The position numbers and the translations under genes were made by a program. From Thermofilum uzonense (GTDB lineage Archaea; Thermoproteota; Thermoprotei; Thermofilales; Thermofilaceae), in assembly GCF_000993805.1 (NCBI RefSeq), contig NZ_CP009961.1, positions 86,001 through 150,000 of the forward strand: a stretch of 64,000 bases of DNA, given 5' to 3'. The notes below the pieces were generated by a model. That model was not told the origin of the DNA and made no database searches. It saw only the letters and a list, made by a program, of their open reading frames with translations. Positions 33,185-44,631 of the stretch are shown in pieces (position 1 is the stretch's first letter; every line of letters begins with the position of its first letter).

Positions 33185-33297
33185 GTGAGTTTCTGTATTT
33201 ATGCCATTCTATCAACTTTACATCCGTCAAAAATCTTTTTCAACTATTTCTCAAGACATGTCATAAATTCATTATTTCTAAGTAAAACTTTATATAT

Positions 33298-35463
33298 TTG
33301 CTTTCAGCTTGGCCCTCTGTGTCTGAGAATAAAACAGCGAAGAAGGCACGCCTTGTTCTTGCAATCGTTGTAGCGTTTCTTGTGGTCGCATCATTAATTT
33401 TCTACCTCTCAACGCAAAAGCAAGCTCCTACAGGTGCAGTGACAACGGCTAAGCCTTTCCACAAACAGATTCTCTACATAATTGTGAACGATGAAGGAAC
33501 AAGGATAAACATGTATAAGACAGGCGTTTTCGATATAGCAGTCGTAACCCCCTCACGATGGCCAGACGTTAACAATACCAAGGTTGGCTCCTTCTACCTA
33601 CATCTAGTTCGACGTCCAGACAAACCTCAACTGACAATACAATACATAGGGCTCAATCCAATGAAAGAACCACTCAATATCCCTGAAGTTCGACAGGCTT
33701 TGGCCTATGCAACACCTTACGATGTTATTTTAAAACAAGTTTTCGGTGGTCTGTACACAAGACTTTATACCATCATCCCTAAGGGGATGTTAGGTTACAC
33801 GGAGTTCGGTATAAACAAATATGAATATGACATGAACAAGGCTCAGCAGATAATAAGCAGCTTGAAAGCTAAAGGCTTTGATCCCTCAAAATATGTTATA
33901 ACGATAACTTACAACGAAGGTAACACCGCCCGCCAGCAAATTGCAACTCTACTCCAACAATCGTGGAGCCAGCTAGGCTTCAAGGTTACTGTAGAAAGCT
34001 ATTCATGGCCTAAGTACCTGGACTTAACTGATCATTTTGAACATCAGGTAATGCTTCTAGGATGGATTCCCGATTACATGGATCCAGACGATTATTTGAT
34101 GCCTTTCGTATGGGGAGGAGCAGAGTTCAAGGATCTAGAATATCACGCCAATGTCCCTCCTGCAAATGTGGGTAATTACTTATCCTCGGTAAATATGACG
34201 ATTGAAACCGAGAAATACATTGTAGTGGTAGGAGAGAAGGGAACCGGAGCCAAGTACACTGGTCCAACAAATAAGCCTATAATAACTGTGGGATATGTAG
34301 TCGACTGGGATACCACAAACTCTAACTGGCAAAACCCTGTTAATATGGTCACTCTGGGAACAGGTGGCCTTAAAGACGTGGCTCTTAGCGCATTATGCAA
34401 AGTGGCACAAAGGATACTTGAGGAAAATGTCAGAGAGGCTGTAATACAGGCTGCTGTAATCTACTTTAACAGGCAATCCACACTCCTTATCATAGGTCAG
34501 CAGATCACCGGGGAAAACTATGGCTCTTGGGTTCACGACATGTATTATCCTTTAGCCACATTCGCCCGATACGACTTAGTTTGGGAGGATCCTAATGCTC
34601 CTGTCGCTGATACAGGTGTTCAGAACATACAAAACAATCCTGAGACAATGGTCATCGGCGACATTGGCTGGCCTGACACCTTTGACCCAGCTAAATCCTA
34701 TGAAAGCTTCGGCTGGGAGATCTTCTGGCAAGTCTATGGGAAGCTAGTTACAACATGGAAAGAGGATACAGAACCGATACCAGAGTTATCAGTGGCTTGG
34801 GCTTTCAGCAAGGATCTAACTGATCTATACTTCGTCGTTAGGGGTAACGTTAAAGCTTATGATCCCTGGAATAACAAAACTTATCCAATATCGGCGGTGG
34901 ACGCCTTATTCAGTGCCTGGAGGGCTGTTAGGCTCAACTTACCAGGTGGACCACAATGGATGATCGACAGCTACATAGATGTTAATGCCTCATCAGTCCT
35001 CACGGAGAACGAGCTAGATAGTATAGCTAAAAGCCAAGGATTAGTAACAATGTATAAGGGTAAATCAGCGGAAATTCATAGCTTAAATGAGCTTCTAAGC
35101 TTCTTCGGCTACACAGGTCCAACCTCTGGAGTCGTTAAATTCAAATTGAGGGCCCCCTATGTACCTATACTTCAGATTTTCGTCACAGGTGTAGGGTCTG
35201 TCATACCAATGCAATACGCGCTAGGAAATCAGTATCAGGCAGCTTTAGCCGACTCCAACAATGGACGGAACCCTTCCGCTTGGGCTAAGTACGTTGGTGT
35301 CGGTGAAAACGACGCTACCTTTAAGCTTCTTTCTACGAAACCCGTATCCACAGGTCCCTATTACGTGGCAGACTATAAAGAGGATAGTTACATCCTTCTC
35401 AAATATAATCCGTACTATTGGAACACTACACTCTGGCAACAGTTATACGGTTTCAAGCCGTAA
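33298..35463 (+). CDS. Peptide/oligosaccharide ABC-transporter binding protein, circularly permuted family 5
   Basis: N-terminal membrane helix (residues 18-37) as signal anchor, then a linker. The domain order is inverted: the middle/C-terminal part of an SBP family-5 protein comes first (KTGVFDIA 74-81, YIGLNPMKEPLNIPEVRQALAYATPYD 116-142, lobe II), then the usual N-terminal part (MVIGDIGWPDTFDPA 451-465, PELSVAWAFS, and TGPYYVADYK..LKYNPYYW near the C-terminus). Ends without a C-terminal anchor. TTG 33298 start; GTG 33319 possible. First gene of the ABC operon 33298-39643. Confidence 0.85.
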   Translation: MLSAWPSVSENKTAKKARLVLAIVVAFLVVASLIFYLSTQKQAPTGAVTTAKPFHKQILYIIVNDEGTRINMYKTGVFDIAVVTPSRWPDVNNTKVGSFYLHLVRRPDKPQLTIQYIGLNPMKEPLNIPEVRQALAYATPYDVILKQVFGGLYTRLYTIIPKGMLGYTEFGINKYEYDMNKAQQIISSLKAKGFDPSKYVITITYNEGNTARQQIATLLQQSWSQLGFKVTVESYSWPKYLDLTDHFEHQVMLLGWIPDYMDPDDYLMPFVWGGAEFKDLEYHANVPPANVGNYLSSVNMTIETEKYIVVVGEKGTGAKYTGPTNKPIITVGYVVDWDTTNSNWQNPVNMVTLGTGGLKDVALSALCKVAQRILEENVREAVIQAAVIYFNRQSTLLIIGQQITGENYGSWVHDMYYPLATFARYDLVWEDPNAPVADTGVQNIQNNPETMVIGDIGWPDTFDPAKSYESFGWEIFWQVYGKLVTTWKEDTEPIPELSVAWAFSKDLTDLYFVVRGNVKAYDPWNNKTYPISAVDALFSAWRAVRLNLPGGPQWMIDSYIDVNASSVLTENELDSIAKSQGLVTMYKGKSAEIHSLNELLSFFGYTGPTSGVVKFKLRAPYVPILQIFVTGVGSVIPMQYALGNQYQAALADSNNGRNPSAWAKYVGVGENDATFKLLSTKPVSTGPYYVADYKEDSYILLKYNPYYWNTTLWQQLYGFKP

Positions 35464-35473
35464 AAAAGAAAAA

Positions 35474-35482
35474 TATTTTTTT
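35474..35482 (+). terminator. T-run after the first binding-protein gene
   Basis: ATATTTTTTTCC begins 11 bases after the stop. It could terminate part of the transcripts so that the binding protein is made in excess over the permeases. Confidence 0.35.
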
Positions 35483-35497
35483 CCTGGTGTATACGGG

Positions 35498-36556
35498 ATG
35501 GGCTTAGGCACTTATCTGGTCAGAAGGTTAATAACGTTTCTTCCCAGCGTAATAGGTGCTCTCCTCATAACATACCTCATAGCATACGTTATTCCAACGG
35601 ATCCTGTCAGAGCATGGGTAGGTGAAAAACTAATGGATCCATCAACTCTCGAAAAGCTCAAAAAAGATTACAAGTTTGATGCCCCATGGTATGAACAGTT
35701 TGCCTTCTTGGTTGAAAAACTACTAACAGGGTCTTTAATTGACCCTGTACGAGGTACTCCTGTAGTCTTGCAAGTAGCTCAGAGGTTTCCCATCACAGTT
35801 GAACTAGCAATATTCGGAATGTTTTTCACAGTACTCATCGGTATTCCTCTCGGCATAATAGCGGCCGCGAAGAAAGACAGCTTCATCGACTTCTTCGTAC
35901 GAATATTTGCTCTGCTAGGAAGCTCCATTCCAGCCTTTGTTCTCTACTATTTCTTAATTCTCGTATTTTATGTGTATATTAGGGCGTCCCTCCTAGCAGG
36001 CGTCCCTACTCTCTCACCTGGATGCGTAGCTACACTTGAAAATATCAGAAATACTATTCCAATCCTCGGATACTTGATATGGGCAGTGGGGCAAGTTCCT
36101 CTATTCGGAGGAATCATATGCCTCGATTTTAGTGTAGTCGCCAATACAGTTTCCAGGATGTGGTTACCTGGCTTAGCCTTAGGGTTGCTCTCAGGAGGAT
36201 TCATAGCAAGAATAGTCAGGAATAGCTTGCTCGATGCGTTAGCCTCAGAGACCATACTCTTCGCAAAGGCTAGAGGTTTAACAAGTAACCGTATATGGCG
36301 TCACGCCTTAAAGAACGCTTTTGCTCCCATAGTTACTATTCTTGGACTGGACTTTGCAGGGCTTTTAACGGGAGCTATTATTGCTGAAACCGTTTTTAAC
36401 ATTCCGGGAATGGGTCTCTACATGTATCAGGGTATAACAAGGTTGAATTTTCCAATAATAATTGCTGGTACATTCATGTTCTCAATTATCTATATAGTAA
36501 TGAATTTCCTGGTTGACTTGATTTATGCACTGATAGACCCAAGAGTTAGATACTGA
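35498..36556 (+). CDS. dppB: ABC permease, DppB type
   Basis: Start ATG 35498 (MGLGTYLVRRL), 352 residues; the longer open frame to 35261 overlaps the preceding gene in an unrelated frame. N-terminal DppB signature (RRLITFLPSVIGALLITYL, AYVIPTDPVRAWVG), six helices, and the EAA loop with ETILFAKARGLTSNRIWRHALKNAFAP. Membrane subunit of the first importer, pairing with DppC. Confidence 0.93.
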   Translation: MGLGTYLVRRLITFLPSVIGALLITYLIAYVIPTDPVRAWVGEKLMDPSTLEKLKKDYKFDAPWYEQFAFLVEKLLTGSLIDPVRGTPVVLQVAQRFPITVELAIFGMFFTVLIGIPLGIIAAAKKDSFIDFFVRIFALLGSSIPAFVLYYFLILVFYVYIRASLLAGVPTLSPGCVATLENIRNTIPILGYLIWAVGQVPLFGGIICLDFSVVANTVSRMWLPGLALGLLSGGFIARIVRNSLLDALASETILFAKARGLTSNRIWRHALKNAFAPIVTILGLDFAGLLTGAIIAETVFNIPGMGLYMYQGITRLNFPIIIAGTFMFSIIYIVMNFLVDLIYALIDPRVRY

Positions 36557-36560
36557 TAGG

Positions 36561-37676
36561 GTGGTGAATGTGAATATTTTTTACAGGCTTGGAAGCTGGA
36601 TTGTGGATACGTATGCTGAATTAAGAGATAAGCTTGAACCGGGTTGGCTTGCTAAGAATAAATCTAAGCTTGTCGAGACAAAGCTCTCCATATACGTTTT
36701 TACTTCCTCGAAAATCGGTCTAACTGGTCTTATCCTAGTAATGGTTACGCTATTCCTAGCCATCTTCGGTCCCTTTATTGCTTGGGAGCCTTACAACGTC
36801 TACCCTATACTTCTAAGGCCCGATCTAGCTGGAAAACTACCCCATCCACCCTGCTGGAGTAACTGTGAGGGGCTTCCCTGGGCTGGAACAGACCACTATG
36901 GACGTGACATTTTAAGCCTTGTAATAAGGGGTTTCAGAATATCACTCGTAATGAGTATTATAATTGTCTTCACAAGCGCGATTATAGGGATACTATTAGG
37001 TCTTCTTTCCGGCTACTCGGGCGGGATTGTAGATGAGGTAATAATGAGGTTTACTGACATGATGCTTGCATTTCCAGGCTTGATTCTAGCTATTGCCTTC
37101 AGCTTAACGCTTAGATTATCCCTTAGAGATTTCATGATGTCGAATCCATCTTTTACACAAATAGTAGCCTCTATTTTTGCTCTGGATCCCACGGATGCGC
37201 CTAATCTAGCGAATCTACTCTCGGTTTTTCTAGCTCTCATACTCGTCTGGTGGCCGCCCTACGCTAGAGTGGTGAGAGGATCCGTACTAACGATAAAGGA
37301 GCAAGGTTTCATAGAAGCGGCCAAAGCTTTGGGCCTCTCGACAAGGAAGATCCTCTTCCGTCACTTGCTCCCAAATATAATGTCTCCCCTGTTAGTGATG
37401 ATAACCTTTGACTTTGCGACCGCTACGTTAAGCTCTGCAGCCTTATCTTTCCTTGGATTAGGTCCCCAACCACCTGTACCCGATTTAGGTCTAATAATTT
37501 CCCAGGCAGGGCAATACTTTCCCGAACGCAGTTGGTGGATCGTCGTAGAGGCTGGAACAGCACTGCTTTTAATATCACTAGGCTGGAACCTTGTTGGCGA
37601 TGCTCTTCGAGATGTTTTCGATCCTAAGACTAGACGTTCTATAGAATTGAAATCCAAGATAGTGGTGAGAGAATGA
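36561..37676 (+). CDS. dppC: ABC permease, DppC type
   Basis: 371 residues. Canonical DppC block WAGTDHYGRDILS near 110, five to six helices, and EAA loop IEAAKALGLSTRKILFRHLLPNIMSPL near 250. Start GTG 36561 in a run GTGGTGAATGTG; GTG at 36564 or 36570 are equally possible. Ends at 37676 overlapping the DppD ATG. Confidence 0.93.
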   Translation: MVNVNIFYRLGSWIVDTYAELRDKLEPGWLAKNKSKLVETKLSIYVFTSSKIGLTGLILVMVTLFLAIFGPFIAWEPYNVYPILLRPDLAGKLPHPPCWSNCEGLPWAGTDHYGRDILSLVIRGFRISLVMSIIIVFTSAIIGILLGLLSGYSGGIVDEVIMRFTDMMLAFPGLILAIAFSLTLRLSLRDFMMSNPSFTQIVASIFALDPTDAPNLANLLSVFLALILVWWPPYARVVRGSVLTIKEQGFIEAAKALGLSTRKILFRHLLPNIMSPLLVMITFDFATATLSSAALSFLGLGPQPPVPDLGLIISQAGQYFPERSWWIVVEAGTALLLISLGWNLVGDALRDVFDPKTRRSIELKSKIVVRE

Positions 37677-38674
37677 GCTTGGAGCTAAAGGAGAATCAGA
37701 TACTAGCAGCTCGCGACGTCAACGTCAGATTTTATACATATGCAGGTGTAGTTCATGCAGTATCCGACGCCTATTTAGACATTTTTGAAAGGGAAACCGT
37801 TGCTCTCGTGGGAGAAACTGGGAGCGGCAAGACAGTATTTACTCGGGCACTAACTCGTCTCATCGAGCCTCCTGGGAGGATTGAGTCCGGAAGAATATAC
37901 TTCAGAAGAAGGAATGGGAGCGTAGTCGAACTATTGAAACTAACCGAGAGCGAGTTACGTGACGTTAGGGGAAACGAAATCTCGTACGTTTTCCAGGATC
38001 CCTCGAGTGCGCTTGACCCCCTCTACACAGCTGGTGAACACATAGTCGAAACAATCCTTGAACATAGGGCTGTTTCAAAGGATGAAGCTTGGAATGAAGC
38101 TATTCAGCTCTTACAGGATGTTATGATTCCAAATCCAGAGGTTCGTGTTAAAAGTTACCCGCATGAGCTCAGTGGGGGTCTAAGACAAAGGGTTGTAATA
38201 GCCACCGCAATTTCCAACAAGCCAAGACTACTAATTGCTGACGAACCAACGACAAATCTCGACGTGACAGTGCAGGCCCAGATTCTAGATCTCCTAAGAG
38301 AACTTAGAAACAAATATGGGATGAGTCTCCTGCTTATCACACATAACCTGGGCATTGTTGCTGAAATAGCTGATAGAGTCTATGTAATGTATGGGGGCAG
38401 AATCGCTGAGACAGCTGACGTATATACTTTATTCGAGTCACCCCAACATCCATACACACAGCTTCTCTTAAAATGTGTCCCTAACCCGTTAAAGAAAGTT
38501 GAAAAGCTTGAGTCGATTCCAGGAACAGTTCCAAATCTCATAGATGTGAAACCTGGCTGTCCCTTTGCGCCTAGATGCCCTTTCGCAATGGAAATCTGCC
38601 GTACTCAGAACCCCCCCAAAGTAGAACTGGGAAAAGGACACTTTGTCCACTGCTGGTTATACTCGAAGAGGTGA
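37673..38674 (+). CDS. dppD: ABC ATPase, DppD type
   Basis: Walker A GETGSGKT (47-54), LSGGLRQRV signature, Walker B LLIADEPTTNLD, and the oligopeptide-transport C-terminal extension with a Cys motif (GCPFAPRCPFAMEIC and HFVHCW). Four such cysteines hold a [4Fe-4S] cluster in a characterised DppD (established knowledge). ATG overlaps the dppC stop. One of two ATPase subunits of the first importer. Confidence 0.94.
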   Translation: MSLELKENQILAARDVNVRFYTYAGVVHAVSDAYLDIFERETVALVGETGSGKTVFTRALTRLIEPPGRIESGRIYFRRRNGSVVELLKLTESELRDVRGNEISYVFQDPSSALDPLYTAGEHIVETILEHRAVSKDEAWNEAIQLLQDVMIPNPEVRVKSYPHELSGGLRQRVVIATAISNKPRLLIADEPTTNLDVTVQAQILDLLRELRNKYGMSLLLITHNLGIVAEIADRVYVMYGGRIAETADVYTLFESPQHPYTQLLLKCVPNPLKKVEKLESIPGTVPNLIDVKPGCPFAPRCPFAMEICRTQNPPKVELGKGHFVHCWLYSKR

Positions 38675-38680
38675 AAAAGC

Positions 38681-39643
38681 ATGACGGACTTAATAAAAGT
38701 GGAAAACGTTAAGAAATACTTCCGCGTGAGAGGCTCACTTTTTAAGACACTCAAAGCGGTAGATGATGTTAGTTTCTCAATAAAGGAAGGAGAGACACTA
38801 GGCTTGGTTGGCGAAAGTGGCTGTGGCAAATCAACACTCGGAAGAGTAATAATAAGACTCATCGAGCCTACCAGCGGTCATATATTTTTCAGGAGCAAAG
38901 ACATAACTTCTCTGAAAGGTGAAGAGCTTAAAAGATTCAGAAAAGAAGCCCAAATAGTCTTCCAAGATCCCAATACCTCTCTTAATCCCAGACTAACAAT
39001 ACTGGAGACTCTTACCGAACCTCTATACGAACACGGTATACATTTATCTGACCCTGAAGAATTTATAACGCAGCGACTTAACGAGGTCGGTCTAGGAAGA
39101 GAACACTTGTACCGCTATCCCCACGAGCTTAGCGGTGGCCAAAGACAGCGAGTAGCTATTCTTAGGGCACTTCTCCTAGATCCATCTTTTGTTGTTTTAG
39201 ACGAGCCTACATCCTCCCTTGATGTCTCTGTTCAAGCTCAGATCCTCAATATACTGAAGGGTATACAAGCCGAGAAGAAGATAACTTATCTTTTCATCTC
39301 TCACGACATGGGAGTTATTAAGTATATGAGCCATAGAATAGCGGTAATGTATTTAGGAAACATCGTAGAAGTAGCTTCCTCCGAGGAACTCTTCGAGCAA
39401 CCTCTTCACCCATATACGAAATACCTTTTAAGTGCCATCCCAATCCCTGATCCAAAATATACCCGTCTCAGAAAACGTCTAGAGATCGGTGGCGAGCCAC
39501 CATCTCCGATAGACCTGCCATCTGGATGCAGGTTCCACACAAGATGTCCGTTTAGTATGGAGAAGTGCAAAAAGGTTTCTCCACCGTTAATAGAGGTCGA
39601 GCCAGGTCATTACGTTAAATGTTGGCTTTACGTGAAGAGCTAA
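38681..39643 (+). CDS. dppF: ABC ATPase, DppF type
   Basis: Walker A GESGCGKST near residue 45-53, signature LSGGQRQRV, Walker B FVVLDEPTSSLD, and the C-terminal cysteine segment GCRFHTRCPFSMEKC plus HYVKCW. 320 residues. Six bases after dppD; last gene of the first importer operon. Confidence 0.94.
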   Translation: MTDLIKVENVKKYFRVRGSLFKTLKAVDDVSFSIKEGETLGLVGESGCGKSTLGRVIIRLIEPTSGHIFFRSKDITSLKGEELKRFRKEAQIVFQDPNTSLNPRLTILETLTEPLYEHGIHLSDPEEFITQRLNEVGLGREHLYRYPHELSGGQRQRVAILRALLLDPSFVVLDEPTSSLDVSVQAQILNILKGIQAEKKITYLFISHDMGVIKYMSHRIAVMYLGNIVEVASSEELFEQPLHPYTKYLLSAIPIPDPKYTRLRKRLEIGGEPPSPIDLPSGCRFHTRCPFSMEKCKKVSPPLIEVEPGHYVKCWLYVKS

Positions 39644-39705
39644 TGAGCTTAGCACTCGTTAATTTTTCAGTGTTATAAGATAGCTACATGGGGTGTAAAT
39701 GGAAA

Positions 39706-40341
39706 ATGAAATACATTTATTGTTCGGAAAAAGCATTACGCAAGCTTCACGATAAGATTTTTCTCTGGTATCCATATGCTTCCTTCCAGGGAAAGAACAC
39801 TTCATTTTACCTTCTCGTGGACTGTGTGATATCTAGCCTTCTTGAAGATAGAAACCTTCGGATACTCCTCTCAAGAGTTGTATCAGCCAGTATAATCTCC
39901 GATGCGAATCAACTCCCAATCCCGGCCGGAAAAATAGATCACCCAAACTGTACACAGGAAATCATAAATAGTTTTATTCGAGAAAAAGATATATCATCGG
40001 GGGAAATGCCTCCGGTAAGCTTTGATTTAACGGATTATCTTGCAGCAAGGGCTCTAGGAGTACCTTCAGCTCTCAGAAAAATCGATGAAACTTTTAGAGC
40101 CTATGCGTCCAAAACTCTTAATCTCATAGGGCTTTTAGAAAATCTCAAATTTCAAGAGCTCGAGTTCAAGGGCAAGCTTCACCAGCTTCTAGCCCTCGGA
40201 AAAAAAGGTAGTGAGGCATATCTTGTTGAAGGAGAAAAAATTACAAGGTATAGGCTTCTCGAGAAAGCACTAAAGGAGAATAAACATATTTCTCAACTCA
40301 TATTCACGAAAGCCCAACCTCTCAATCACGCTTTAAAATAG
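39706..40341 (+). CDS. Hypothetical protein between the two ABC operons
   Basis: About 211 residues from ATG 39706 (MKYIYC); ATG 39688 is in the same frame, but a TATA-like GTTATAAGA at 39672-39680 fits the later start. No family recognised. Mixed alpha/beta, soluble, no signal. A separate short promoter suggests it is not part of the importer operon. Its 3' end overlaps the convergent beta-propeller gene by 20 bases. Confidence 0.6.
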   Translation: MKYIYCSEKALRKLHDKIFLWYPYASFQGKNTSFYLLVDCVISSLLEDRNLRILLSRVVSASIISDANQLPIPAGKIDHPNCTQEIINSFIREKDISSGEMPPVSFDLTDYLAARALGVPSALRKIDETFRAYASKTLNLIGLLENLKFQELEFKGKLHQLLALGKKGSEAYLVEGEKITRYRLLEKALKENKHISQLIFTKAQPLNHALK

Positions 40342-41764
40342 AACCTCGCAAGGCATAATAGATTACTAGCAAGAAGACAATAAACACAGGCAACAACAGT
40401 ACGAGAGGCACATTTCTCTCTAGTATTCTTCGAAGAGCAAGTCCAGGATCAAATTCTCTTTTAAAAGCTTTCCTCTCTATTTTAACCGTAGAAGTACTAA
40501 CTGACACCTGTGAAACTTTAGGGTCGGTCTCTACCACCTGTATTTTGGGACAGGGCCGCTCCTTAACTACGCCTCTAAGCAATCTCCACCCATAGATGGA
40601 TTTTGAGTAATAGCTAAGCTCACTTGTATCATCCAAGAATAACGTCGAGTTGATACTGGGACCGCTGAGCTGATAGTTTACTGCAACGTCTCCCTTAAGG
40701 CTCCCAGCTATTATACCGCCCGGGTAGTATAAAAAGAAATGCTTTCCTCCTATGTCTCCCGTCAAGTCGAGACTTGGCTCACTGCGCACTATTTCAAGCC
40801 TGCTCTCGTTGAAGATCCAGCCCTCGATCTCGTCTTCGACAAGCAGGAATGGATCTTTCCTCCCTTCCTCAAAAACACCTGAACCAACAATATACACTCG
40901 ACCAGTATCAGGATCCACATATACCCTTTTAAGGTAAGTCTCTCCCAGGCTTAAATAGCCTCTCAACCACAAAATACCGCCAATACGCGACACTCTAAGC
41001 AGGAAGCCCTGGGTTCCCTCACCCCCCATGGTATAGCCTACGATTACGTAATCCCCGTTACGTGTGACTCCAACATCCTCTCCGCTGTCTATCCCGGCCC
41101 CTCCAATACTCCAGCTATCAACTAAAGTCAAGTCGTCCCTTACTTTTAAGAGAAGAACGTCGCCCTGAGAAACATTATAAGCCCACGTCTCCCCTAAAAC
41201 CATAATATTCTCGCCGTCGAATATCAACCGCTTCGCAATGTCCGGATAATCAACACTACCATAGCATCTCAACCCCAGGAGCCTTCCTTCCAGGTTAAAG
41301 CGTGCTACAAGTACATCTAGATCCCCTCTCGGAGTCTGTGCAAAATATCCTGCAACCATAATAGCCCCATCATGATATGTGGCGTCAGATAGGAAAATAT
41401 CAGTAGAACCTTTCAGACGAAAACTTTTGGTTTTGTCCTTGTCGTGATATAAGACAAGCCCCTCTACACCTTCACCAGGGCTCCCACCATACCCGCTTAG
41501 TATAAAGCTTCCATTAATTTCTCTTGAAGATAGAATCATACCTCTAGAAACCCACTGGTAAAGAAGCCCTCCTTCCGGGGAAAGAAGTAAAACGCTCGGA
41601 AGAGGGCTCAAAGCCGAACCCGTAAAACCTCCAACGGCGATATACTGGCCCGATATAGCTCCGCTCAAACTATTAAAAGGTGAAGGACTGTTTGTATAGA
41701 TGGTGCTTAGGGAAAAAAAGATCCAGACCACTGCAAAAAGCGTTATTAATGTAATTACTCTCAT
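40322..41764 (-). CDS. Membrane-anchored beta-propeller-like surface protein
   Basis: 480 residues: signal peptide (4-20), repeated blades of about 45-50 residues with the pattern VVGYTMGGEGTQGFLLRVSRIGGILW and MVAGYFAQTPRGDLDVLVARFNLEGRLLGLRCYG (SBBP-like propeller), then a C-terminal helix (VPLVLLLPVFIVFLLVIYYAL) with RGSILKRD as the cytoplasmic tip. Outer-face location is inferred from the signal and the tail. Substrate or ligand unknown. Lies between, and opposite to, the two ABC operons. Confidence 0.72.
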   Translation of the reverse strand: MRVITLITLFAVVWIFFSLSTIYTNSPSPFNSLSGAISGQYIAVGGFTGSALSPLPSVLLLSPEGGLLYQWVSRGMILSSREINGSFILSGYGGSPGEGVEGLVLYHDKDKTKSFRLKGSTDIFLSDATYHDGAIMVAGYFAQTPRGDLDVLVARFNLEGRLLGLRCYGSVDYPDIAKRLIFDGENIMVLGETWAYNVSQGDVLLLKVRDDLTLVDSWSIGGAGIDSGEDVGVTRNGDYVIVGYTMGGEGTQGFLLRVSRIGGILWLRGYLSLGETYLKRVYVDPDTGRVYIVGSGVFEEGRKDPFLLVEDEIEGWIFNESRLEIVRSEPSLDLTGDIGGKHFFLYYPGGIIAGSLKGDVAVNYQLSGPSINSTLFLDDTSELSYYSKSIYGWRLLRGVVKERPCPKIQVVETDPKVSQVSVSTSTVKIERKAFKREFDPGLALRRILERNVPLVLLLPVFIVFLLVIYYALRGSILKRD

Positions 41765-41928: not shown

Positions 41929-44631
41929 ATGAAAAACAAGGTAGCACTTGTTATTGTCCTCCTATTAGCCTTATCAATACTGCTACCACTGCTCAGAGCC
42001 CAACCCCAGGGTCCATGGGTAGATGAGGTCGACTTCTTCGCCGAGAAAGACCCAGCCAAAGTCATCGACATGCTCAGCAAGGGAGACATGCAGATCTACT
42101 TCTCCGACATACGCGCCGACCCAGCTCTTATGCAGAAAATTAAGAGCGACCCCAACCTAAAGTACACGTACTCTTACGGTCTCTACTTTGATTTGACTTT
42201 TAACCCTGTGGGCCCCGAGTTCCCAGCTACTGGAAAGCTCAACCCCTTCTCAGATCCAAGGATACGCGAGGCCATGAACTGGCTCATCGACAGAAACTAC
42301 ATAGCTAACGAGATAATGGGTGGCTTAGCTGTACCCAAATGGCTACCCATCGTCAACGTCTTCCCAGACTACGCTAGGATAGCTGACACAGCCAAGTCCC
42401 TTGAAGCAAAGTATAGCTACGACTTCGACAAGGCCAAGGCCGTAATCTTCGAGGAGATGTCCAAGCTTGGCGCCACATTTAAAGATGGAAAGTGGTACTA
42501 CAAGGGAAGCCCCGTCGAGATAACGATCCTTATACGCACCGAAGACCAGAGGAAGCAGATCGGCGACTATGTAGCGGATCAGTTGCAAAAGCTAGGCTTC
42601 ACAGTCATAAGGAGGTACGGAACCAGCCGAGACCTTGCTCCGCTGTGGATACGCGGAAACCCCGCTGATGGGAAATGGAATATTTATACTGGTGGATGGA
42701 TTACGACCGCCGTCGAGCGTGACTCTGCCAGCAACTTTGGCTTCTTCTATACTCCTCTAGCCAGCTATATGGGGCCACTCTGGCAAGCCTATAAGCCGGA
42801 CCCCATCTTCTACGAGGTGGCAACTAAGCTCTGGAACGGCCAGTTTACCTCAATGGAGGAGAGAACCCAACTAATAGCTAAGGCAGCTGAGCTCGCCCTT
42901 AAAGACTCTGTACGCATATGGCTTGTAGACCAAATAGTCCCGTGGGTTTACCGCAAGGAGGTTCAGTGCGCCTCTGACTTCTCAGCAGGCTTCGACAACA
43001 ACCTATGGCCCATGACCCTTCGCTACGTTGGCAAGGAGGGAGGAACCATAAAGGCTGGGATGCGTGAGGTTTTAGTTGATCCCTGGAACCCTGTCGCCGG
43101 CACCAACTGGGTCTACGACTCGGTGCTCTTAATGGCAGTGGACGACTACGCCTACAGGACAAACCCCTACACAGGCCTCCAAATGGCTAACAGGCTTGTT
43201 AAGGCTGAAGTGTACGCGCTGAAGGGTATAGTGACTCAGTCCAGCAGTGACTGGCTCAAACTCACCTTTGTTGACAAGGTCGAAGTCCCAGCGGATGCGT
43301 GGTATGCTTACGACGTTAAAACTGGGAAAGTCATCACTTCAGGAGAAGCTGGAGTGAAGTACGCCCAGGTAAAGATTGTCGCAAACTATGGTGACGTTCT
43401 AGGCAAGATTAAATATCACGACGGAACAACCATGACTCTCGCCGACTGGCTGATAGGCTGGCCTCTTACCTTCGCACGTGTAGACCCCTCCAGCCCACTT
43501 TACGACAAGTCTGCGATAGCCTCATTCCAGCAATGGAGGGATATGATGCGAGGTTGGAGAATCGTCAGCACCAGTCCTCTAGTCATAGAGTACTACGTGA
43601 ACTATACAGCGCTAGACGCGGAAGCCATAGTCTTCAGCTTCGCGGGCTGGCCATCCAACCCATGGCACATGCTTGCTATTGGAATAAGGGCGGAGGAGAA
43701 GGGCCTCCTCGCGTTCAGTGCAGATAAAGCTGGCGAAATGAACGTTGAGTGGATGAACTATATCGGCGGGCCAAGCCTCGATATACTCTCAAAGATGTTA
43801 AGCGAGGCCCAGAGTGAGGGATACATACCATTTAAAGCCTTCATGTCTAACTACGTTAAGCCAGACGAAGTCAACGCAAGGTACACGGCTTTAAAGAACT
43901 GGTACCAGGCCCACGGCCACTTCTATGTCAGTGCTGGTCCCTTCTACCTTGACAAGGTAGACTACAACGCTCACATAGCTGTGCTGAAGGCTAACAGAAA
44001 CTTCCCCGACAAGGCGGATCGATGGTCCTTCCTTGCCACTCCACCGATACCAGAAGTCAGTGTAAAGGTTCCCGATATAGTGGTGCCAGGCGCCGAGGCT
44101 ACATTTACTCTCAACATTAACGTCGGTGGTAAGCCCTACCCGACCGGGCGCATAGACTTCGTCAAGTACATGGTGCTAGACGCGCAGGGTAACGTATATG
44201 CCAAGGGTGTTGCAACCCCACAAGCCGACGGCGTTTGGATTGTGAAACTATCTGGCGAAGATACTGGAAAACTGACCCCTGGAAGCTACAGGATACTTAC
44301 AATTACCCTGAGCAAGGATGTCGCGACACCAGTACTTGTCGAGAAACCATTCACGGTGACTTCACAGATAGCCTACTTCCAGACGCTCCTCACTCAGGTA
44401 CAAAGCTCGCTTGAATCCAAGTTAGGCTCGCTTCAAGCAGGAATAACCGACGTCAACAACAAGGTCAACAACCTTAGCAGCCGCGTAAGCGGAATCGAGT
44501 CCACACTGAACATGGCTCTAGCCCTTAGCGTCGTCAGCCTCCTCCTCGCGATCGTGGCACTCGCTATGGGTCTTAGAAAGCCAAAAACCGTTGAAAAAAC
44601 TTCACAGGAGGCAACTCAAGTCAAATCGTGA
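41929..44631 (+). CDS. Second peptide/oligosaccharide ABC binding protein, permuted, with Ig-like and coiled-coil tail
   Basis: Signal peptide (1-25). Domain order is permuted as in the first operon: FSDPRIREAMNWLIDRNYI (107-125) comes first, and the usual N-terminal lobe (GGTIKAGMREVLVDPWNPV, 371-389) follows, ending SAGPFYLDKVDY...LKANRNF (about 664-692). Then an Ig-like domain (about 704-815), a coiled coil (820-860) and a C-terminal helix (862-883) as membrane anchor. First gene of the second importer operon. Substrate unknown; not identical to the first protein. Confidence 0.85.
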   Translation: MKNKVALVIVLLLALSILLPLLRAQPQGPWVDEVDFFAEKDPAKVIDMLSKGDMQIYFSDIRADPALMQKIKSDPNLKYTYSYGLYFDLTFNPVGPEFPATGKLNPFSDPRIREAMNWLIDRNYIANEIMGGLAVPKWLPIVNVFPDYARIADTAKSLEAKYSYDFDKAKAVIFEEMSKLGATFKDGKWYYKGSPVEITILIRTEDQRKQIGDYVADQLQKLGFTVIRRYGTSRDLAPLWIRGNPADGKWNIYTGGWITTAVERDSASNFGFFYTPLASYMGPLWQAYKPDPIFYEVATKLWNGQFTSMEERTQLIAKAAELALKDSVRIWLVDQIVPWVYRKEVQCASDFSAGFDNNLWPMTLRYVGKEGGTIKAGMREVLVDPWNPVAGTNWVYDSVLLMAVDDYAYRTNPYTGLQMANRLVKAEVYALKGIVTQSSSDWLKLTFVDKVEVPADAWYAYDVKTGKVITSGEAGVKYAQVKIVANYGDVLGKIKYHDGTTMTLADWLIGWPLTFARVDPSSPLYDKSAIASFQQWRDMMRGWRIVSTSPLVIEYYVNYTALDAEAIVFSFAGWPSNPWHMLAIGIRAEEKGLLAFSADKAGEMNVEWMNYIGGPSLDILSKMLSEAQSEGYIPFKAFMSNYVKPDEVNARYTALKNWYQAHGHFYVSAGPFYLDKVDYNAHIAVLKANRNFPDKADRWSFLATPPIPEVSVKVPDIVVPGAEATFTLNINVGGKPYPTGRIDFVKYMVLDAQGNVYAKGVATPQADGVWIVKLSGEDTGKLTPGSYRILTITLSKDVATPVLVEKPFTVTSQIAYFQTLLTQVQSSLESKLGSLQAGITDVNNKVNNLSSRVSGIESTLNMALALSVVSLLLAIVALAMGLRKPKTVEKTSQEATQVKS

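Follow-up and report, generated by a model that had tools for sequence, protein, structure and literature searches.

The 714-aa protein encoded at 33319-35463 of the window, a stretch of 64,000 nucleotides from the heat-loving archaeon Thermofilum uzonense (contig NZ_CP009961.1, positions 86,001 to 150,000), is very probably a circular permutant of the family-5 (Dpp/Opp-type) solute-binding proteins, which capture nutrients for uptake pumps. Canonical members have the order A-B-C, in which A is the N-terminal part from FDP to NPYYW, B the part with DIA, RQALAYA and DPDDY and C the C-terminal remainder, and both termini of their fold lie in one lobe. The T. uzonense protein has the order leader-B-C-A, the old termini being linked and the new ends lying between A and B.

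Gene and segment order of the binding protein

The open reading frame at 33298-35463 was confirmed, and its 725-aa frame carries both of the profile matches given below. The sequence-only reading had started the gene at TTG 33298. Since this codon sits within the single TATA-like box and the orthologues begin near GTG 33319, the GTG is the better start and is used for all residue numbers given here unless stated otherwise. Segment borders were taken from per-segment HMMs. The features are:

33287..33300, + strand: TATA-like box ACTTTATATATTTG, seen in the sequence ~25 bases upstream of GTG 33319; putative promoter element
33319..35463, + strand: family-5 solute-binding protein, 714 aa, permuted order B-C-A
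33334..33408, + strand: N-terminal signal anchor or membrane helix, residues 6-30, from the sequence and the AlphaFold2 secondary structure
33451..34173, + strand: segment B, the canonical middle, residues 45-285 (approximate), with FDIAVV, RQALAYA and GWIPDYMDPDDY
34174..34269, + strand: B-C linker, residues 286-317, in which IVVVGEKGTG is the first strand of a likely beta-hairpin
34270..34602, + strand: segment C, the canonical C-terminal part, residues 318-428
34603..34635, + strand: C-A linker, residues 429-439, joining the old C- and N-termini
34636..35430, + strand: segment A, the canonical N-terminal part, residues 440-704, with FDP, TGPYY and NPYYW
35431..35460, + strand: C-terminal tail LWQQLYGFKP, the new C-terminus at the A/B cut

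The protein scored 177.5 bits with SBP_bac_5 (PF00496; cut-off 32.4), matched in two stretches but not in the canonical linear order: in a search of the T. uzonense genome, PF00496 positions 146-361 matched first (E 1.5e-42) and positions 2-141 downstream in the same frame (E 5e-10). Therefore, the protein is filed as a permuted relative and not as an ordinary member of SBP_bac_5. The third family-5 protein of the genome (C1:509647-510750) matched PF00496 1-367 in canonical order. With phmmer, query positions 108-269 aligned to 286-446 of DppA from E. coli, 449-542 to 29-124 and 674-711 to 199-236, the last two pieces being weak when taken singly. A profile of the C-A half, built from eleven relatives, matched the N-terminal region of DppA-type structures with E 7.7e-21, and its C part matched the C-terminal region of YliB. 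The segment HMMs found A, B and C exactly once each, cyclically rotated.

The circular permutation had been proposed in the sequence-only reading and is borne out by the permuted profile matches, by more than 20 collinear orthologues, by a phylogeny of reassembled segments and by a confident single-domain model. The order given there, with the middle and C-terminal part first (74-430) and the N-lobe after it (451-715), stands, but the first part begins near residue 45 (GTG numbering) and not at 74. Residues 451-715 did not match an unrelated family, the outcome named there as counter-evidence; the profile in this region fits DppA-type N-termini. The only membrane helix is indeed the N-terminal one, but its use as a feature fitting the altered order was dropped, since C-A-B and canonical relatives are N-terminally anchored too.

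Structure model

AlphaFold2, run with an alignment of 36 sequences, gave one compact fold (pLDDT 92, pTM 0.87). The best PDB matches of the model in Foldseek were dipeptide-binding (DppA-type) proteins, aligned over ~375 of ~507 DppA residues (TMt 0.50), a partial coverage that is expected because the sequential aligner meets a rotated chain. For L112, a C-A-B relative, the same kind of sequential alignment of its model spanned ~500 columns (TMt 0.57-0.66). A profile search against structures found none that was solved for a close relative. The window protein would take the ordinary three-lobed clam-shell fold. Between B and C it has an extra stretch with two strands that is not seen in canonical relatives, IVVVGEKG in the linker and IITVGYVV (about residues 321-328) at the start of segment C; the DSSP strands at 301-307 and 321-328 of the model suggest that they likely form a beta-hairpin. 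Within this B-C linker region lie the sites at which the C-A-B relatives described below are cut.

Operon and second binding protein

A complete importer operon of five genes begins with this gene, and a second complete importer operon follows downstream. The other four genes of the first operon and the second binding protein are:

35498..36556, + strand: permease 1, BPD_transp_1, start taken at ATG 35498
36561..37676, + strand: permease 2, BPD_transp_1 and OppC_N
37673..38674, + strand: ATPase 1, ABC_tran and oligo_HPY
38681..39643, + strand: ATPase 2, ABC_tran and oligo_HPY
41929..44631, + strand: second binding protein, 900 aa, order B-C-A, followed by an Ig-like region, a SlaB-like coiled coil and a C-terminal membrane helix

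With its listed start at ATG 35261, the permease ORF (35261-36556) overlaps the gene of the binding protein, and the likely start is ATG 35498. Between the operons lie two proteins without a Pfam match, at 40325-41764 (- strand) and 39688-40338 (+ strand); the 480-aa protein of this pair has a signal at the N-terminus and a membrane helix at the C-terminus.

Both ATPases carry oligo_HPY, the oligopeptide/dipeptide C-terminal domain, and family and operon together mark the window protein as the receptor of a Dpp/Opp-type importer. It shares with DppA/OppA all three segments, the motifs FDP, TGPY, NPYYW and RQALAYA and an operon that also encodes two permeases and two ATPases with oligo_HPY, but differs in its B-C-A instead of A-B-C order, in the extra B-C hairpin and in an archaeal N-terminal anchor that is not cleaved. 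It is most likely a working receptor whose chain ends have moved neutrally. Tethered by its N-terminal helix, it would bind a peptide or an oligosaccharide outside the cell and would pass the ligand on to the two permeases encoded beside it. As a clue to the substrate, ten proteins flanking the orthologues were searched with Pfam, which returned unrelated genes; a GH57 gene and a glycosyltransferase/phosphorylase-like gene lie beside one orthologue and, by reading of the sequence, a GH3-like sequence lies upstream of another (L007). The literature search returned nothing specific on an experimentally studied member of the family.

The rotation extends beyond the one gene to which it had been ascribed: the neighbouring binding protein at 41929-44631 is permuted as well. 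Its profile matched the archaeal structure 7fi3 in reversed order, with positions 454-684 aligned to residues 68-294 (E 5e-9) and positions 88-273 to residues 374-577 (E 3e-27). Orthologues of this 900-aa protein are found across Thermofilales. At the C-terminus it is similar to SlaB, a stalk protein of the S-layer, and it ends as if anchored like an S-layer stalk.

Segment orders among relatives

Close relatives (E<=1e-25) were found in 42 of the 398 Thermoproteota genomes. Many are collinear with the window protein over residues ~35-714 and thus B-C-A; in others residues 293-708 were matched first and 45-280 after, giving C-A-B. The B-C-A orthologues are from Thermofilaceae including Thermofilum, where the same order had been proposed to be sought and is indeed found across the family, and from Pyrobaculum and Desulfurococcaceae; C-A-B orthologues are from Staphylothermus, Pyrodictium, Acidilobaceae, Aeropyrum, Thermococcus MAGs and most Thermococcales. 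The segment HMMs gave the orders B-C-A, C-A-B and B2-C-A-B1, so that close relatives have at least two rotations besides that of the window protein. Among the C-A-B proteins the chain is cut at one of two places, on either side of the first B-C hairpin strand. The third order is that of L113:1957-4401, on a Guaymas MAG contig labelled Thermoplasmata, which is cut inside B, has its own lipobox leader and carries B split at both ends, not duplicated.

The L027 type, a subfamily of more distantly related proteins with the order B-C-A, is widespread in Thermoproteota. In one of its members, L214 (G243:C4:89600-92700, minus strand), Pfam positions 1-288 lie at residues 307-600, and by reading of the sequence the protein is probably cut within domain III, starting with the second half of that domain and ending with the first. 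Downstream of the first half, L214 has an MG2-like domain and then a membrane helix. Two divergent B-C-A proteins of one archaeal genome (L215 and L216 of G178) carry dockerin-like repeats at the C-terminus. The chain ends of the family-5 binding protein therefore seem to change repeatedly in evolution.

Rotation at one locus in Thermococcales

The gene is present in 64 of the 94 Thermococcales genomes, with the order B-C-A in three and C-A-B in nearly all others. The B-C-A protein L125 is 81-87% identical to the C-A-B proteins L112 or L115 in each of A, B and C and has the same lipobox leader of a lipoprotein; between L125 and L112 the genes on both sides are conserved, with full synteny. Segment identity, shared locus and shared leader together indicate a rotation in place.

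Thermococcales proteins with the order B-C-A (L125, L176 and L177) have the B-C linker DATADDISSMMSKAEVIET, which resembles SPADVGKYLSSAKVIDT of the crenarchaeal B-C-A proteins. An ancestral B-C-A order, or a duplicated intermediate that persisted for long, would fit this likeness better than a reinvention. In the tree, the Thermococcales B-C-A proteins are nested among C-A-B proteins without that linker (L112, L179). Very large open frames at some B matches were considered as fusion proteins and rejected; they seem to run on into the permease gene, given that this gene is in the same frame in L112.

Origin of the rotation

The chain ends were probably moved by tandem duplication and trimming. 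In a first step the mature part would be duplicated in frame and in tandem behind the retained leader; in a second, redundant 5' and 3' pieces would be lost, in frame and with an early stop. With fold and pocket unchanged, such a rotation would be nearly neutral to selection. A duplicated intermediate, for example B-C-A-B, was found in none of the 398 Thermoproteota and 94 Thermococcales genomes. The wider proposal, that family-5 genes of hyperthermophilic archaea are effectively circular, rotating recurrently in place behind a fixed leader, with at least 4-5 cut points, independently in several subfamilies and by a local DNA process that is still active, is put forward tentatively, as a possibility that falls somewhat short of probable.

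The leader and the tether are conserved while the body rotates, and the second permuted protein bears a SlaB-like S-layer stalk. Both would also suit an adaptive rotation, in which the binding protein is turned with respect to the membrane, the S-layer or the permease by a shift of its tether. However, different rotations occur in close species with the same operon and have no visible correlate, and we regard adaptation as unlikely. Rather less likely is fission and fusion, by which A and B-C would have existed as separate genes or subunits and would have been fused in different orders: in its favour, the cuts lie near domain boundaries and the A/B cut recurs, but cuts are also found inside B (L113) and probably inside domain III (L214), and in the loci examined neither A-only nor B-C-only split genes were found beside the permeases.

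The number of changes was judged from a tree for which the segments had been put back into canonical order. In it, the permuted sequences all formed one clade against the canonical ones with 98-100% support, and B-C-A is stable over many genera, which would be expected if the protein had been rotated once in an ancient ancestor and then inherited, the window protein being a member of a stable permuted subfamily. Within the clade, however, C-A-B proteins of the second cut type are basal, and B-C-A and C-A-B proteins of the first cut type are intermixed. Monophyly of all B-C-A proteins was rejected (AU p=1.5e-34), whereas monophyly of the Thermococcales C-A-B proteins was only marginally rejected (AU p=0.029, SH p=0.13), and Fitch parsimony gave six order changes, a rough minimum with several weak inner nodes. 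A single ancient permutation was thus discarded on tree and AU test and is very improbable. Misassembly, a frameshift or chance similarity of residues 451-715 is dismissed, with hardly any probability left to it, by the orthologues (more than 20 collinear ones in independent assemblies), the single-contig genome with its open frame and the strong match of the A part (E 7.7e-21).

Discussion

Both circular permutation and family-5 binding proteins are already known, and in nature the former is mostly inferred from comparisons of distant homologues. To our knowledge, recurrent rotation between orthologues of more than 80% identity is unusual. A literature search, with most subscription journals outside its scope, returned no naturally permuted binding proteins, only engineered sensors and general papers on permutation. 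Circular permutations are described for DNA methyltransferases (Jeltsch 1999; Bujnicki 2002, both as cited in PMC3320104), in which, following this secondary account, several cyclic orders of one fold are likewise found in one superfamily; here, the orders differ between >80% identical orthologues, at one syntenic locus and in a large secreted protein. Saposin/swaposin and transhydrogenase are textbook cases of circular permutation in nature, arising through duplication or through fission and fusion (PMC3320104). The binding proteins differ from these in their much larger chain, their many cut points and their recurrence in narrow taxa, and no intermediate or split form was seen for them. In Pyrococcus furiosus, the 23S rRNA is circularly permuted through RNA processing and not in the gene (PMC7758197); the hyperthermophilic archaea concerned overlap, with no evidence of a link.

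The rotation explains why profile searches report such proteins as fragments or double matches, and it is a warning that the domain order of archaeal binding proteins is not to be assumed. Sensors based on binding proteins could start from the rotated versions, which naturally have their ends at other positions. Since orthologues of the same operon, more than 80% identical, differ by a rotation, they provide a natural system for asking how circular permutations arise and whether they are neutral.
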